DNA from: Synechococcus sp. C9
GTDB taxonomy: Bacteria > Cyanobacteriota > Cyanobacteriia > Gloeomargaritales > Gloeomargaritaceae
DNA length: 64,000 bases
Assembly: GCF_022984075.1 (NCBI RefSeq)
Contig: NZ_JALAAD010000001.1
Span: 372,001 to 436,000, forward strand
Direction: 5' to 3'
The notes under the pieces were generated by a model. That model ran no database searches. It was not told where the DNA came from and saw only the letters and a program-made list of their open reading frames with translations. Below are positions 29,056 through 33,696 of this stretch, piece after piece; position 1 is the first letter of the stretch, and each line of letters begins with the position of its first letter. Both the position numbers and the translations under genes were made by a program.

Positions 29056-30735
29056 ATGATTCATTATCTATTGGGTGCCCTGTCCATGACTACAGCTGGT
29101 TTTCGTACCCTGCGCCCCCATGCGCTCCGCAGTTTACGGGGACTCCTGCCCTGGCATGACCGGCTGTTGACGGTGGACCCCCGCTCGGGCTACCTGGCGA
29201 GCCTTGACCCGCTCAGCGATGACACCCGGATCCTCAACCCGGAGACGACCCACTACCTCCAGGACGTGGGGGGGTGGAGCCTGGAAGGGGATGCCCTTTG
29301 GTTCACCGACCGGGAACAGGTGTATGTCAGTTATGTGCATCGGGAAGCGGGGCTATGGCAGTTGGCGGAACCGGTGTTGGCACTCACCCTGGACGACCAG
29401 GCGGAAGGCATTGTCAAACGGGGAGAATGGCTGTATATCAGCAGTCAGGGGCGGGGCTGTATCTGGGTCATCCGGGTCACGGATGGGAAGGTGGTGCAAA
29501 CCTGGCGCACTCCAGGGGTGGGGATTTCCCAGTTAGCCGTCCTGGAGGAAAAACTCTGGCTTTGTGATAACATTGAACAAACTTTGTACCAATTAAACTG
29601 GCAGACGGGTCAGGTGGAACTCGCCGTTCTTACCCCCTACGAGTCGCCGGTGGGGTTGGCGCAGTGGCGGGGGCGGTACTATGTCGCCTATGCGGGGGAG
29701 GAGCCGTACATCCGGGATGAGCCGAATGCCAGCCAGTCCTTGCAGTTGGGGTTTCGGGACCGGGTACTGGTGCATCCTTTGAGCTTTCAGTATTACCCGG
29801 AGGGGCAGTACACCCTCAGTAATGGTTATGTCCTGGAACTGAGCTATGTGGAGGAGTGGTGCCCCCTGGAGGAGGTGGATTTAGCGCAGGTGGAGTGGCG
29901 GATTGCCCTGCCTGCTACGACCCATCGTCAGCGGTTGCGGCGGGTGGAGCCAGTGGGACTGCCCTTTACCCTGGAGGAGGAGGCGGGACAGCCGGTGGCG
30001 GTGTTTCGCTTTGACCGTTTGACCCAACGGCAGGGGTTGATTTTTGGCTGGCGGGCGGAATTAGAAGTCTTTAGCATCAAATACCAAATCCCGGAGCATC
30101 CCGAAGTCCCCCCCCTTGAGCCGGAATTACAACAGCAGTATTTGGTAGATGACGATGAACTGAGTATGGATGAACCGATCATCCGGGCGGCGGCGCGGGA
30201 GGCGGTGGTCGGTGCCGAGACCTTCCCGGAACAATTGCTGGCGATTCGCAATTATGTCTATGACCGTCTGCGTTATCACATGAGAAGTACGATTGACCCA
30301 CCCCACATTGCCCTCCAGCGGGGGACGGGTTCCTGTGGGGAATACGTGGGGATCATGCTGGCGCTGTTGCGGTTGAATGGCATTGCCTGCCGGACGGTGG
30401 GGCGGTATAAATGCCCGAAAAACCCAGAATTGTTGGGGGTGCCGCTGTTTCCCCAGTTCAACCATGTGTGGCTGGAGGTGTACTGGCCGGGGCGGGGCTG
30501 GTTGCCCATCGAGTCCAACACGGATCATTTGCCGGAACGCCCTTGGTTGCAACCCCAGCGATTTTTCTTGGGCTTAGCCTGGTATCACTTGGAACTGGGG
30601 CGGGGGATTCGTTTTGAACGTCTGCGCCTCCCGGATGGCTCTCGCCCGGAGTTGGGCTTGGGGGATTTGGCCATTAATCACATTCGCTGTATTTTGCACG
30701 AAGAGATTGCCCCGCCTACCCCACCCGATACATGA
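29056..30735 (+). CDS. Transglutaminase-like protein with a beta-propeller-like N-terminus
   Basis: 559 aa. Residues about 15-240 contain repeated W-x-T, G-x-L-W-x and V-x-V blades suggesting a propeller (GWSLEGDALWFTDR, KLWLCDNIEQTLYQL). A linker follows, then a transglutaminase core at about 385-500: the catalytic Cys in GTGSCGEYVG, the His in FNHVWLEVYWPGRGW, and the third position in PIESNTD, where Asp is more usual. Function is unknown; cysteine-protease or peptide cross-linking activity are options. The ATG at 29086 is an alternative start. Its last 20 bases overlap the convergent caspase-like gene. Confidence 0.65.
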   Translation: MIHYLLGALSMTTAGFRTLRPHALRSLRGLLPWHDRLLTVDPRSGYLASLDPLSDDTRILNPETTHYLQDVGGWSLEGDALWFTDREQVYVSYVHREAGLWQLAEPVLALTLDDQAEGIVKRGEWLYISSQGRGCIWVIRVTDGKVVQTWRTPGVGISQLAVLEEKLWLCDNIEQTLYQLNWQTGQVELAVLTPYESPVGLAQWRGRYYVAYAGEEPYIRDEPNASQSLQLGFRDRVLVHPLSFQYYPEGQYTLSNGYVLELSYVEEWCPLEEVDLAQVEWRIALPATTHRQRLRRVEPVGLPFTLEEEAGQPVAVFRFDRLTQRQGLIFGWRAELEVFSIKYQIPEHPEVPPLEPELQQQYLVDDDELSMDEPIIRAAAREAVVGAETFPEQLLAIRNYVYDRLRYHMRSTIDPPHIALQRGTGSCGEYVGIMLALLRLNGIACRTVGRYKCPKNPELLGVPLFPQFNHVWLEVYWPGRGWLPIESNTDHLPERPWLQPQRFFLGLAWYHLELGRGIRFERLRLPDGSRPELGLGDLAINHIRCILHEEIAPPTPPDT

Positions 30736-32530
30736 GGGACAGACCCGCCCAGGTATCCAGGTGCAGTTCGTAGGTGTCCTTGGGGGCGGAGGTGAGCTGG
30801 TGCAGGTGGGCAAGAATCGCCTGGGCGAGGGGCAGGGGTTCCGGGGGCAGGGGGGTCGCCCATGCGGAGGTGCCCAGTAAAAGGCGCAACTCCGTCAGTC
30901 CGGGGGTGGCGGGGGCGGTGAGGGTGAGGGTAACCGGGGTCTGGGGGGGCAGAACCTGGGGCGGGTGGGGGGTGATTTCCTGGTTGGCCTGGATGGTCAA
31001 GGGTAGGGCAAACAGGGGTTGGGCTTCCCGGTGGCTGACCTGGCAGGTGAGGGGGCTGGCGGCGGCCAAGGTGGGAATGTCCTGGCTGAGGCCGGTGGCG
31101 GTGGCGGTGGGTGCGGTGGTCTGGGTCAAGAGGAGCCGATCCGCCTGGGCGAGCCGGACGGTCAGGTTCAGGGGGGTGGCCGCCAGGTTATCGGTTAATT
31201 GCAGGAGTTTGACCGCCAGGAGGTTTTGCAGGCGGGGAATCAGGCGTTTGATCGCCGCCTTGACCGTCTCATCCGCCTCCCCTTCCGTGCCGAGCAGGAG
31301 GTCGTGGCCGGGGGAAAACAGCCCGTAGGTGGTGGGGGTGACCCGTCCCAGCAGGCAATCCACCCGTTGTTCCCCCACCTTGACCGTATTGACATAACTC
31401 AAACTGCCCAGGGCACTGGTGGCATCCACCCGTTCGATGCGCTCCAGGTCGGCGGCCAGGGCAATGGTCACACTTACGTTGCTTGGCACGACCCGCACCC
31501 GTTCCCGCACCCAATCCCCCACCTGGACGGAGCCGGGGTTGGTGGTTTTACCGATCAGGCCATTGCGGGAGCGCAGTACCAGCCTCACCCCCTGGGGGGT
31601 TTCCAGTTGGGATTCGGGGGCTAAAGCCGCCAAAATCCAGGGAGCCAGCCCCGCCAGCACACATTCCACCCCGTCGGCATTCACCTGCACTACCCGTCCC
31701 GCCGCCCCCACCGCCACCGGCAGTCCCCGGGGGGCACCCACCATTTCCGGTGCCTGTTGGGAACCCACGGTCTGGGCAATCTGGGCGGCCACCTCCACCA
31801 AAATCGGGGCGGGGGTCGTGCCCCACAGGGTCTGGGTGAGGGCGTAGGTTAATGTACCTGCACTAAACCCCGCCCAGAGGGCTTCGGTGGCGATACTCCC
31901 CGGGCGGGCGGCTCGGAATAGCACCCCCGGCGGGCGAGAATTAGGTGGGGGGGTGGACAACCCCTCTTGAACGGACGGGCAGGCTCGCACCCGCATATTG
32001 CCGCAGGCAAAACTCCCCGGATAGTCATACCCCGTATCCAAGACGGTGATCACCTGTTCCGTGGGCAATTGCCGCAACCAGTCCAGCAATTCCCCCTCCC
32101 CAATCCCGTTTTCAATACCGTTCCCCATGCCGTCAAACCCCGCATCGCTAGGCAGGAGCATGGGTTGAGCCGACCGAGTCCCATAGCCGCTAAAATGCAC
32201 GACCACCACATCCCCCGCTCGGGCCTGCTGGGCTAAATGCTCCTGAAAGGCTTGGCGAATCTGGCTACGGCTGGCCTGGGCATCGGTCAAGGTCAGCACA
32301 TCCGTCGGGGCAAACCCAAACCGCCCACAGAGCAATTCCCGCTGGAGCCACACATCCGTCCCACACCCGGCAAGGGCAGGGGTCTTGGTCAGGCGGGGGT
32401 AATGATTGATGCCAATTAACAGGGCCAGTTTGCGGGCAGTGGGGGCGGCCAACACCCGTCCGGTGCCCCAAAAAGCCCCCCCCAAGGTCAAGAGCATGGT
32501 TTGGAGCCAGGCACGCCGGGTATAGCCCAT
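30716..32530 (-). CDS. Caspase-like protein (orthocaspase family) lacking the catalytic dyad, with Tat-type signal
   Basis: 604 aa. The N-terminus MGYTRRAWLQTMLLTLGG is a twin-arginine-type signal. The p20-like fold follows from KLALLIGINHYP to about residue 185. Active family members have H-F-S-G-H-G with the catalytic His and D-x-C-H-S-G with the Cys. Here these read VHFSGYG (His replaced by Tyr) and VLDTGYDYPG (no Cys at the site), so peptidase activity is unlikely. The C-terminal 400 residues are repetitive beta-type sequence ending in PLPLAQAILAHLHQL. Such pseudo-enzymes are known among cyanobacterial orthocaspases. It is 11 bases downstream of sat. Confidence 0.78.
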   Translation of the reverse strand: MGYTRRAWLQTMLLTLGGAFWGTGRVLAAPTARKLALLIGINHYPRLTKTPALAGCGTDVWLQRELLCGRFGFAPTDVLTLTDAQASRSQIRQAFQEHLAQQARAGDVVVVHFSGYGTRSAQPMLLPSDAGFDGMGNGIENGIGEGELLDWLRQLPTEQVITVLDTGYDYPGSFACGNMRVRACPSVQEGLSTPPPNSRPPGVLFRAARPGSIATEALWAGFSAGTLTYALTQTLWGTTPAPILVEVAAQIAQTVGSQQAPEMVGAPRGLPVAVGAAGRVVQVNADGVECVLAGLAPWILAALAPESQLETPQGVRLVLRSRNGLIGKTTNPGSVQVGDWVRERVRVVPSNVSVTIALAADLERIERVDATSALGSLSYVNTVKVGEQRVDCLLGRVTPTTYGLFSPGHDLLLGTEGEADETVKAAIKRLIPRLQNLLAVKLLQLTDNLAATPLNLTVRLAQADRLLLTQTTAPTATATGLSQDIPTLAAASPLTCQVSHREAQPLFALPLTIQANQEITPHPPQVLPPQTPVTLTLTAPATPGLTELRLLLGTSAWATPLPPEPLPLAQAILAHLHQLTSAPKDTYELHLDTWAGLSLMYRVG

Positions 32531-32541
32531 ATTGCCCCCCG

Positions 32542-33696
32542 TTAATCCCGCATGGCCGCAATCAAAATGGCCGCCACCTCGGGTCGGCTAAATTCCGGGG
32601 GGGGAGCTTCGCCCCGGCGCAGTAATTCCCGCACCTTGGTACCCGAAAGATGGATGCGCTCCTCCGGTAAACTAGGGCTGGTTTTGCTGGTTGCCATCCC
32701 CTGGGTACGAGGGCAATAGAAGGCGTGTTCAAAAAACAGGGGGGTGATCCCCAGCGCCTGCGGGTCAAATTCCCGAAAAATCTCCTGCGCCTCGTAGGTG
32801 CCGTAGTAATTCCCCACCCCCGCATGGTCCCGCCCCACGATGAAATGGGTACAGCCGTAATTTTTCCGCACCAGGGCGTGGAAAATCGCCTCCCGGGGCC
32901 CCGCATAACGCATCGCCGCCGGATTCACCCCCAACACCACCCGCTGGGGAGGGAAATAGCGTTCCAACATCACCTCATAACAGCGCATCCGCACCTCCGC
33001 CGGGATGTCATCGCTTTTGGTCGCCCCCACCAAGGGATGCAAAAACAACCCGTCCACGATTTCCAACGCACATTTTTGGATATATTCATGCGCCCGATGA
33101 ATGGGATTGCGGGTCTGGAACCCCACCACCGTCCGCCAACCCCGTTCCTGAAACACCTGACGGCTTTTACGGGGCGGCAAATGGTAGGCAGGAAAGGGCG
33201 GCGTGGGCAACCGCCACACCCAAATTGGTCCCCCCAGATACACCGACCCCTGATCCAGCAGGGCCTGCACCCCCGGATGGGCGGTTTCCGTGGTTTTATA
33301 AACCCGTTGCGCCTCCCGTTCCTGGTCCGGGCGGTAGAGTTCTTGCACTTCCATCGCCCCGATCACGGTTCCCTGGTTGTCTGCCAAACGCACCCAAATC
33401 CCCGGGGTTAACCCCGCCGCCACCGCCTCCGTCACCGCCAGGGTAATCGGGATCGTCCAGGGCAGACCATTCGCCAAGTGCATGGTGTCCACTACCGCCC
33501 GGTAGTCCGCCTCCCCCATGAACCCGGTCAGGGGACTCAACCCCCCCGTGGCGATCATTTCCACATCCGAGAGGGCACGCTCGCCCAAGGTCACAGTCGG
33601 TGCCCCCTGGGTTTGGGCCAGCCATTGCGCCTCAGCCGCCGGTGCGACCACCCGGTCAATCAACACCCCTCCGTGGGGAGCAATTCCCAAATCCAC
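32542..33696 (-). CDS. sat: Sulfate adenylyltransferase (ATP sulfurylase)
   Basis: 384 aa enzyme that makes APS from sulfate and ATP, the first step of sulfate assimilation. Key motifs are [17 protein letters not shown] (QTRN and HxxH), [17 protein letters not shown] and [15 protein letters not shown]. The start codon is GTG (33696). The length is as in other cyanobacteria. It precedes the caspase-like gene on the same strand by 11 bases, probably one transcript. Confidence 0.95.

Follow-up and report, generated by a model that had tools for sequence, protein, structure and literature searches.

A Gloeomargarita pseudo-orthocaspase with a twin-arginine signal and a recurrent sat neighbour: a probable non-cutting protein of the thylakoid lumen

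In a 64,000-nucleotide stretch of the Synechococcus sp. C9 genome (contig NZ_JALAAD010000001.1, positions 372,001 to 436,000; hereafter the window), we analysed a gene encoding a caspase-like protein in which both residues of the catalytic dyad are replaced. The protein is a member of an already described family in which the same Tyr-Gly dyad is on record, and is almost certainly the Gloeomargarita member of the cyanobacterial Tyr-Ser (YS) and Tyr-Gly (YG) pseudo-orthocaspases. The best overall explanation, which we favour with some reserve, is that it is a lumenal, non-cutting binder or scaffold made together with ATP sulfurylase, the product of the adjoining sat gene. The interest of the finding lies mainly in the pairing with sat and in the existence of relatives that carry a twin-arginine (Tat) signal and an intact His/Cys dyad. 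The gene and its parts are placed as follows:

30716..32530, minus strand: pseudo-orthocaspase gene (P0001), 604 amino acids
32444..32530, minus strand: twin-arginine signal, residues 1-29, recognised by its RR pattern, with cleavage after VLAA assumed from the sequence
31742..32434, minus strand: caspase-fold domain (PF00656), residues 33-263, whose best sequence relatives with a solved structure are metacaspases
32354..32356, minus strand: Asp59, Asp in 67/67 inactive rows of the family alignment, taken as the first pocket Asp by its motif
32183..32185, minus strand: codon of Tyr116, aligned with the catalytic His site
32036..32038, minus strand: Asp165, likewise Asp in 67/67 inactive rows and assigned by its motif to the pocket as the second Asp
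32030..32032, minus strand: codon of Gly167, aligned with the catalytic Cys site
31883..31885, minus strand: Glu216, Glu in 66/67 inactive rows and Asp in 11/11 His/Cys relatives
30863..31066, minus strand: shortened stretch (residues about 489-556) that aligns with the DUF4384 domain of relatives, with no Pfam detection in this protein

The open reading frame (ORF) starts with ATG, and the coordinates given in a preliminary description of this DNA, made from the sequence without database searches, are exact. That description had called the product caspase-like, which the Peptidase_C14 match bears out (53.7 bits, the cut-off being 21.4; E 3e-14). Among solved structures, those closest in sequence are the entries metacaspase-4, -9, -1 and MCA2. 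It had also reported that both catalytic residues are lost, and the alignment agrees: Tyr116 (in HFSGYG) and Gly167 (in VLDTGYD) occupy the columns where the 11 His/Cys relatives described below have His (11/11) and Cys (11/11). The protein is thus very likely to lack peptidase activity, judging from its residues at these sites.

We surveyed 194 genomes drawn from the phylum, in which the matches counted can include paralogs. The protein has a match in 77 of the 89 genomes of its class (its own included; weakest best E 2.7e-18); the 12 class genomes with no match all belong to a single family (f19, 1.6-3.0 Mb), and outside the class weak matches were obtained in six genomes. Within the order, all eight genomes have a match, every one of them Tyr/Gly, and the closest named record is that of Gloeomargaritales cyanobacterium VI4D9 (L032, 94% identity). 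Loci extending 6 kb to either side were collected from 60 genomes, picked by hand out of the remaining 76 matching genomes of the class, and from all eight of the order. At least eight of the 16 class genomes left out belong to family f7, which accounts for 15 of the 60 fetched.

Of the 60 best matches from outside the order, L078 alone has the complete His/Cys dyad. Among the other 59, we counted 41 Tyr/Ser, 6 Tyr/Gly, 3 Cys/Ser, 3 Phe/Ser and 2 Tyr/Arg dyads, and single cases of Leu/Gly, Leu/Ser, Tyr/Cys and His/Gly. Over the 67 inactive rows, the residue at the Cys site is Ser in 48 and Gly in 16, the window protein being among the latter. All of these variants except Leu/Ser are already in print (PMC6426788, PMC8283722): the Cys-Ser variant is listed in PMC8283722, and a His-Gly dyad is on record for two Synechococcus strains (PMC6426788). 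Three members from family f11 (L043, L055 and L057) have Cys at the first catalytic site (HFSGCG), and all three have sat upstream. Another member (L083 4760-7024, genome G191) is of Tat type, with His at the first site, Gly at the second and a long branch, and is possibly a half-way state.

The gene shows no internal stop, and its dN/dS in comparisons with five congeneric genomes is 0.21-0.27. This is somewhat higher than the values obtained in the same comparison for sat (0.12-0.16) and for a neighbouring transglutaminase-like gene (0.12-0.17), yet well below 1; the gene is under purifying selection. Given the uninterrupted frame, the low dN/dS and the presence of a match in every genome of the order, we dropped the possibility of a decaying relic.

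The N-terminus (MGYTRRAWLQ...VLAA) has twin arginines at residues 5-6 followed by a short hydrophobic stretch, and the RR-x-hydrophobic pattern recurs in 68/68 aligned family rows. By its sequence, the Tat-type signal that the preliminary description had proposed is present, and TatC is encoded in the genome. A simple A-x-A cleavage pattern is found in 41 of the 68 rows and in only one of the seven Gloeomargarita rows; the window protein has VLAA instead. As for the destination, a proximity-labelling study of Synechococcus sp. PCC 7002 used PsbU-APEX2, PsbU being a photosystem II subunit of the lumen, and found the homologue A0101 enriched together with lumenal proteins of that photosystem (PMC7880944, Table 1). 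A0101 carries the description of a caspase p20 protein and appears in the table alongside sll0148. Its mean log2 enrichment (7.64) is between those of Psb32 (8.07) and Ycf48 (7.58), and it reportedly went unidentified in the cytoplasmic control (PMC7880944). Because this homologue was enriched by PsbU-APEX2, the thylakoid lumen is likelier than the periplasm, and we consider it the probable location of the window protein. The periplasmic location initially suggested is probably wrong or incomplete.

Directly upstream of the pseudo-orthocaspase gene lies the following gene:

32542..33696, minus strand: sat, sulfate adenylyltransferase (ATP sulfurylase), a conserved neighbour on the same strand, separated by an 11-base gap

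In 45 of the 68 loci, a sat gene is located upstream of the pseudo-orthocaspase gene with the same orientation, namely in 8/8 loci of the order and 37/60 outside it (in L047, about 2 kb separate the two ORFs). The positive loci outside the order are distributed among 13 of 23 families, including f7 (15/15) and f6 (6/10), while the next commonest neighbour is found in 10 of the 60 loci. No other neighbour is conserved nearly as widely beside the pseudo-orthocaspase gene. In a matched control covering 40 of these genomes (hand-picked out of the 60, with some flanks stopping at contig ends), sat adjoins the pseudo-orthocaspase gene in 27/40 loci and 9/17 families, whereas the best true neighbour of the control gene, which encodes the transglutaminase-like protein, reaches 16/40 loci and three families. 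Two clusters of frames (14 and 10 loci) were excluded from this control for their overlap with the transglutaminase gene on the opposite strand. The association itself is already in print, as sat was briefly mentioned as an operon partner of cyanobacterial metacaspases in two earlier papers, including Asplund-Samuelsson et al. The present analysis contributes the family-by-family count, the connection with the inactive form and the control; the count turns these brief remarks into a specific, testable sat operon.

Since the two genes are only 11 bases apart, a shared transcript is probable, and the level of the pseudo-orthocaspase would then follow sulfate assimilation. A scan for promoters and terminators returned no promoter-like and four terminator-like sites, for 1.0 and 4.5 in shuffled sequences, so there is no excess of either. 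That the pseudo-orthocaspase is functionally tied to sulfur assimilation is a tentative idea that we regard as rather unlikely. Less likely still is a broader proposal, in which the gene and sat form an ancient two-gene unit: in many of the photosynthetic cyanobacteria, production of a lumenal, non-cutting caspase-fold protein would be coupled to sulfate activation, and sulfur assimilation would thereby be connected with the upkeep of photosystem II or with oxidative stress.

Besides the inactive forms, we hand-picked 20 paralog loci from PF00656 matches, of which 19 fit the family profile (L113 gave no match). Ten of these 19 combine a twin-arginine start with both His and Cys, and L078 brings the number of Tat-type His/Cys relatives to 11 (L078, L116-L123, L127 and L128). 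Their frames are mostly 719-788 amino acids long. At least 90% conservation to the same residue was found at 51 positions in both the Tat-type His/Cys rows and the inactive rows, and the two forms differ at 23 positions by the rule used. Residue 216, which is Asp in the relatives rather than Glu, could be a third mark that sets the inactive form apart. Klemencic et al. called the Tat-like extension the most striking difference between YS and active forms (PMC6426788). Contrary to the impression left by that 2019 paper, the Tat signal is not peculiar to the inactive form, as 11 relatives with such a start retain His and Cys; these relatives provide a close, active-looking comparison for the inactive form. 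No sat gene was detected in the flanks examined around the 11 relatives. This is weak evidence because upstream flanks are short in ten of them (about 1.3-1.4 kb for nine and 0.1 kb for L118, compared with 5.9 kb for L078).

The first tree (81 rows, built quickly under a mixture model, without the near-duplicates L063, L070, L077, L080 and L103 and the paralogs L113 and L112) groups 62 inactive rows, including the window protein, with a support of 91, next to a single clade of the 11 Tat-type His/Cys rows (support 98). Two further trees were built without the His and Cys boxes: the second, made without a mixture model, omits 18 of the 81 rows (8 long or gappy, 10 near-duplicates), and the third additionally omits L083 and L073. 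Both recover the ten remaining His/Cys rows as one clade (100/100 both times) and place the outgroup root inside the inactive rows, once on L087, apart from its family sister L088, and in the other tree beside Gloeomargaritales. A single loss from an active Tat-type ancestor would be the simpler view of these sequences, though one clade of inactive rows is supported in the first tree and not in the two box-less trees.

Taken together, these observations can be arranged as follows. The pseudo-orthocaspase, probably encoded on the same transcript as sat, would fold in the cytoplasm and then be exported by the Tat pathway to the thylakoid lumen and perhaps to the periplasm as well. It would not cut; instead, its acidic pocket (Asp59 and Asp165) would bind basic segments of proteins in the lumen, probably close to photosystem II, where it may serve as a scaffold or as an assembly or stress factor. 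The pocket Asp residues of orthocaspases have been described, and the acidic pocket is reported to be retained in pseudo forms (PMC6426788). A lumenal non-cutting binder is the simplest model because the protein has no nucleophile, its acidic pocket is apparently intact, and the genome yields one C14 match in the PF00656 search (as well as one match to the protein itself). With the inactive form as the sole C14 match detected, this genome helps to distinguish the role of that form from the regulation of active caspases. Also in favour of this model, loss of SyOC (sll0148), the Tyr-Gly protein encoded by the sole orthocaspase gene of Synechocystis sp. PCC 6803, alters tolerance to hydrogen peroxide (H2O2) (PMC7889975). 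Specific binding of basic peptides, or a scaffold role, is suggested by the pocket residues and has, in our estimation, slightly less than an even chance of being correct.

Several points weigh against the model. Regarding sat, the gene was not found beside the pseudo-orthocaspase in 23 of the 60 loci outside the order (in two of these, L074 and L085, the upstream sequence is too short for a decision). Family f7 supplies 15 of the 37 positives, without which the count is 22/45; sat is found in 0/5 loci of f13; and 10 of the 23 families have no case at all, most of them being sampled once or twice. Regarding location, A0101 was likened to the window protein through its published description. 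Similarly, SyOC was likened through its published dyad and layout, and the SyOC knock-out grows normally without stress (PMC7889975). The single C14 gene is a lower bound, because PF00656 missed six class genomes that the protein search matched (G036, G058, G083, G087, G119 and G177); in a 14-genome control of PF00656, a match was obtained in Synechococcus elongatus in one search and none in another. The inactive form is not universal in cyanobacteria either, as several strains besides Gloeobacter are named with true orthocaspases only (PMC8283722). Finally, AlphaFold2 applied to three sequences (window protein, L032 and L033) gave an unusable fold (mean pLDDT 33, pTM 0.24). Since this prediction is of low confidence, the acidic pocket is read from the sequence. 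Beyond the caspase part, the sequence profile has weak matches to solved structures, the best (0.0092) being to a designed protein.

The alternative that survives best, while still unlikely, is that the protein is a pro-death factor under oxidative stress, as proposed for SyOC. Lema et al. (2021) found that Synechocystis deleted for SyOC tolerated H2O2 better, with faster recovery at 2 mM (PMC7889975). However, a tolerance phenotype in one strain is no proof of a death pathway, the SyOC gene goes down in H2O2 (PMC7889975), and the high expression of YS forms elsewhere has been read as housekeeping (PMC6426788).

Less probable is a periplasmic protein with a binding or scaffold role, as offered in the preliminary description, that would act together with the transglutaminase-like enzyme whose gene overlaps its own:

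29056..30735, plus strand: transglutaminase-like protein (PF01841, E 1.7e-17), convergent, a neighbour only in the genus Gloeomargarita
30716..30735, no strand assigned: 20-base convergent overlap of the two ORFs, both stops included, with the same ORF overlap in the other six Gloeomargarita genomes

The signal is there, and the length of the overlap had been given exactly. The two genes adjoin in 7/7 Gloeomargarita genomes (the genome studied included), which is as far as the conservation of this neighbour extends: they are not side by side in G200, from the same family, nor were they seen together in 60 other loci (the downstream flank being shorter than 2.5 kb in L053, L072, with 0.2 kb, and L082), although the transglutaminase-like protein is matched in 71 of the 89 class genomes (E up to 1e-20), mostly located elsewhere. 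Moreover, convergent genes are not co-transcribed, a Tat-type signal is not apparent by eye at the start of the transglutaminase-like protein, and the PCC 7002 homologue is lumenal. With adjacency confined to a single genus, the transglutaminase was ruled out as a general partner. The transglutaminase-like protein gives nearly always one match per genome, and its long N-terminal part has no Pfam match over the cut-off.

A role of the protein as a regulator of active orthocaspases, i.e. as a decoy or dimer partner comparable to cFLIP for caspase-8, seems slightly less probable again. Many of the larger class genomes have several C14 matches, some of them Tat-type His/Cys relatives. However, PF00656, within its limited sensitivity, gives a single C14 match in the window genome and in several others of the class that encode the protein, and small unicellular species have been reported with the pseudo form only (PMC6426788). 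Least probable of all is a hydrolase that stays active through a relocated or altered nucleophile, for example Cys56 paired with either His98 or His112, or a Ser in place of the catalytic Cys. Cys56, His98 and His112 are indeed present in 61, 61 and 63 of the 67 inactive rows, and Ser occupies the Cys site in 48, but the first three are also conserved (at least 90%) in the His/Cys relatives, alongside the genuine dyad, and Gly, found at the Cys site in 16 of the 67 rows including the window protein, cannot be a nucleophile. An intact His/Cys pair at other positions, which would have contradicted the loss of the dyad, was looked for, and no family-conserved pair special to the inactive form emerged; C56, H98 and H112 are the only Cys or His conserved in more than 90% of the inactive rows, C392 (36/67) and H577 (46/67) being less so, and a substitute catalytic pair was therefore judged unlikely.

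The C-terminal part is short throughout Gloeomargarita, where it spans 138-150 residues, compared with a median of 201.5. Pfam detects no DUF4384 in the window protein. Among 33 members scanned, this domain was found at E up to 1 in 21, with the best value (1.4e-15) in the His/Cys row L078. Ten members were scanned singly: L078, L094 and L083 scored above the cut-off, L041, L062 and L107 below it, and L043, L067, L084 and L101 gave nothing. The presence of DUF4384 in the family is not new, since it has been tabulated in four pseudo and 19 true cyanobacterial orthocaspases (PMC8283722).

Among the open-licence papers retrieved, we found none that names Gloeomargarita together with orthocaspase or metacaspase, and the nearest known systems are those of other cyanobacteria. 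In Nodularia spumigena, the gene of metacaspase M32 (NSP_23610) adjoins that of a sulfate adenylyltransferase (NSP_23620) (PMC4933709), as at the window locus. The other sulfur-related neighbour of M32, a methylthioadenosine phosphorylase, has a similar-looking frame (by eye) within 6 kb in only 9 of our 68 loci. SyOC shares with the window protein both the Tyr-Gly dyad and the status of single gene; a knock-out has been made for SyOC, and none is known to us in Gloeomargarita. At the level of the whole family, inactive orthocaspases with Tyr at the His site had been mentioned in the preliminary description as occurring in cyanobacteria, and they are indeed on record: Klemencic et al. (2019) described cyanobacterial Tyr-Ser pseudo-orthocaspases, with an RR and A-x-A signal noted, and tabulated Tyr-Gly forms in Synechocystis 6803, 6714 and 7509 and in Synechococcus JA-2-3B'a(2-13) and PCC 6312; the role they proposed is in photosynthesis or thylakoid biogenesis (PMC6426788). 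The window protein is unlike most YS forms in having Gly, Ser being commoner, and it is shorter (its stop-to-stop frame is 623, compared with 626-836 in the 60 relatives outside the order), mostly through shortening of the C-terminal part. Like the YS pseudo-orthocaspases, however, it has Tyr at the His site, a replaced Cys, an RR signal, both pocket Asp residues, a long C-terminus, and a single copy in a small genome.

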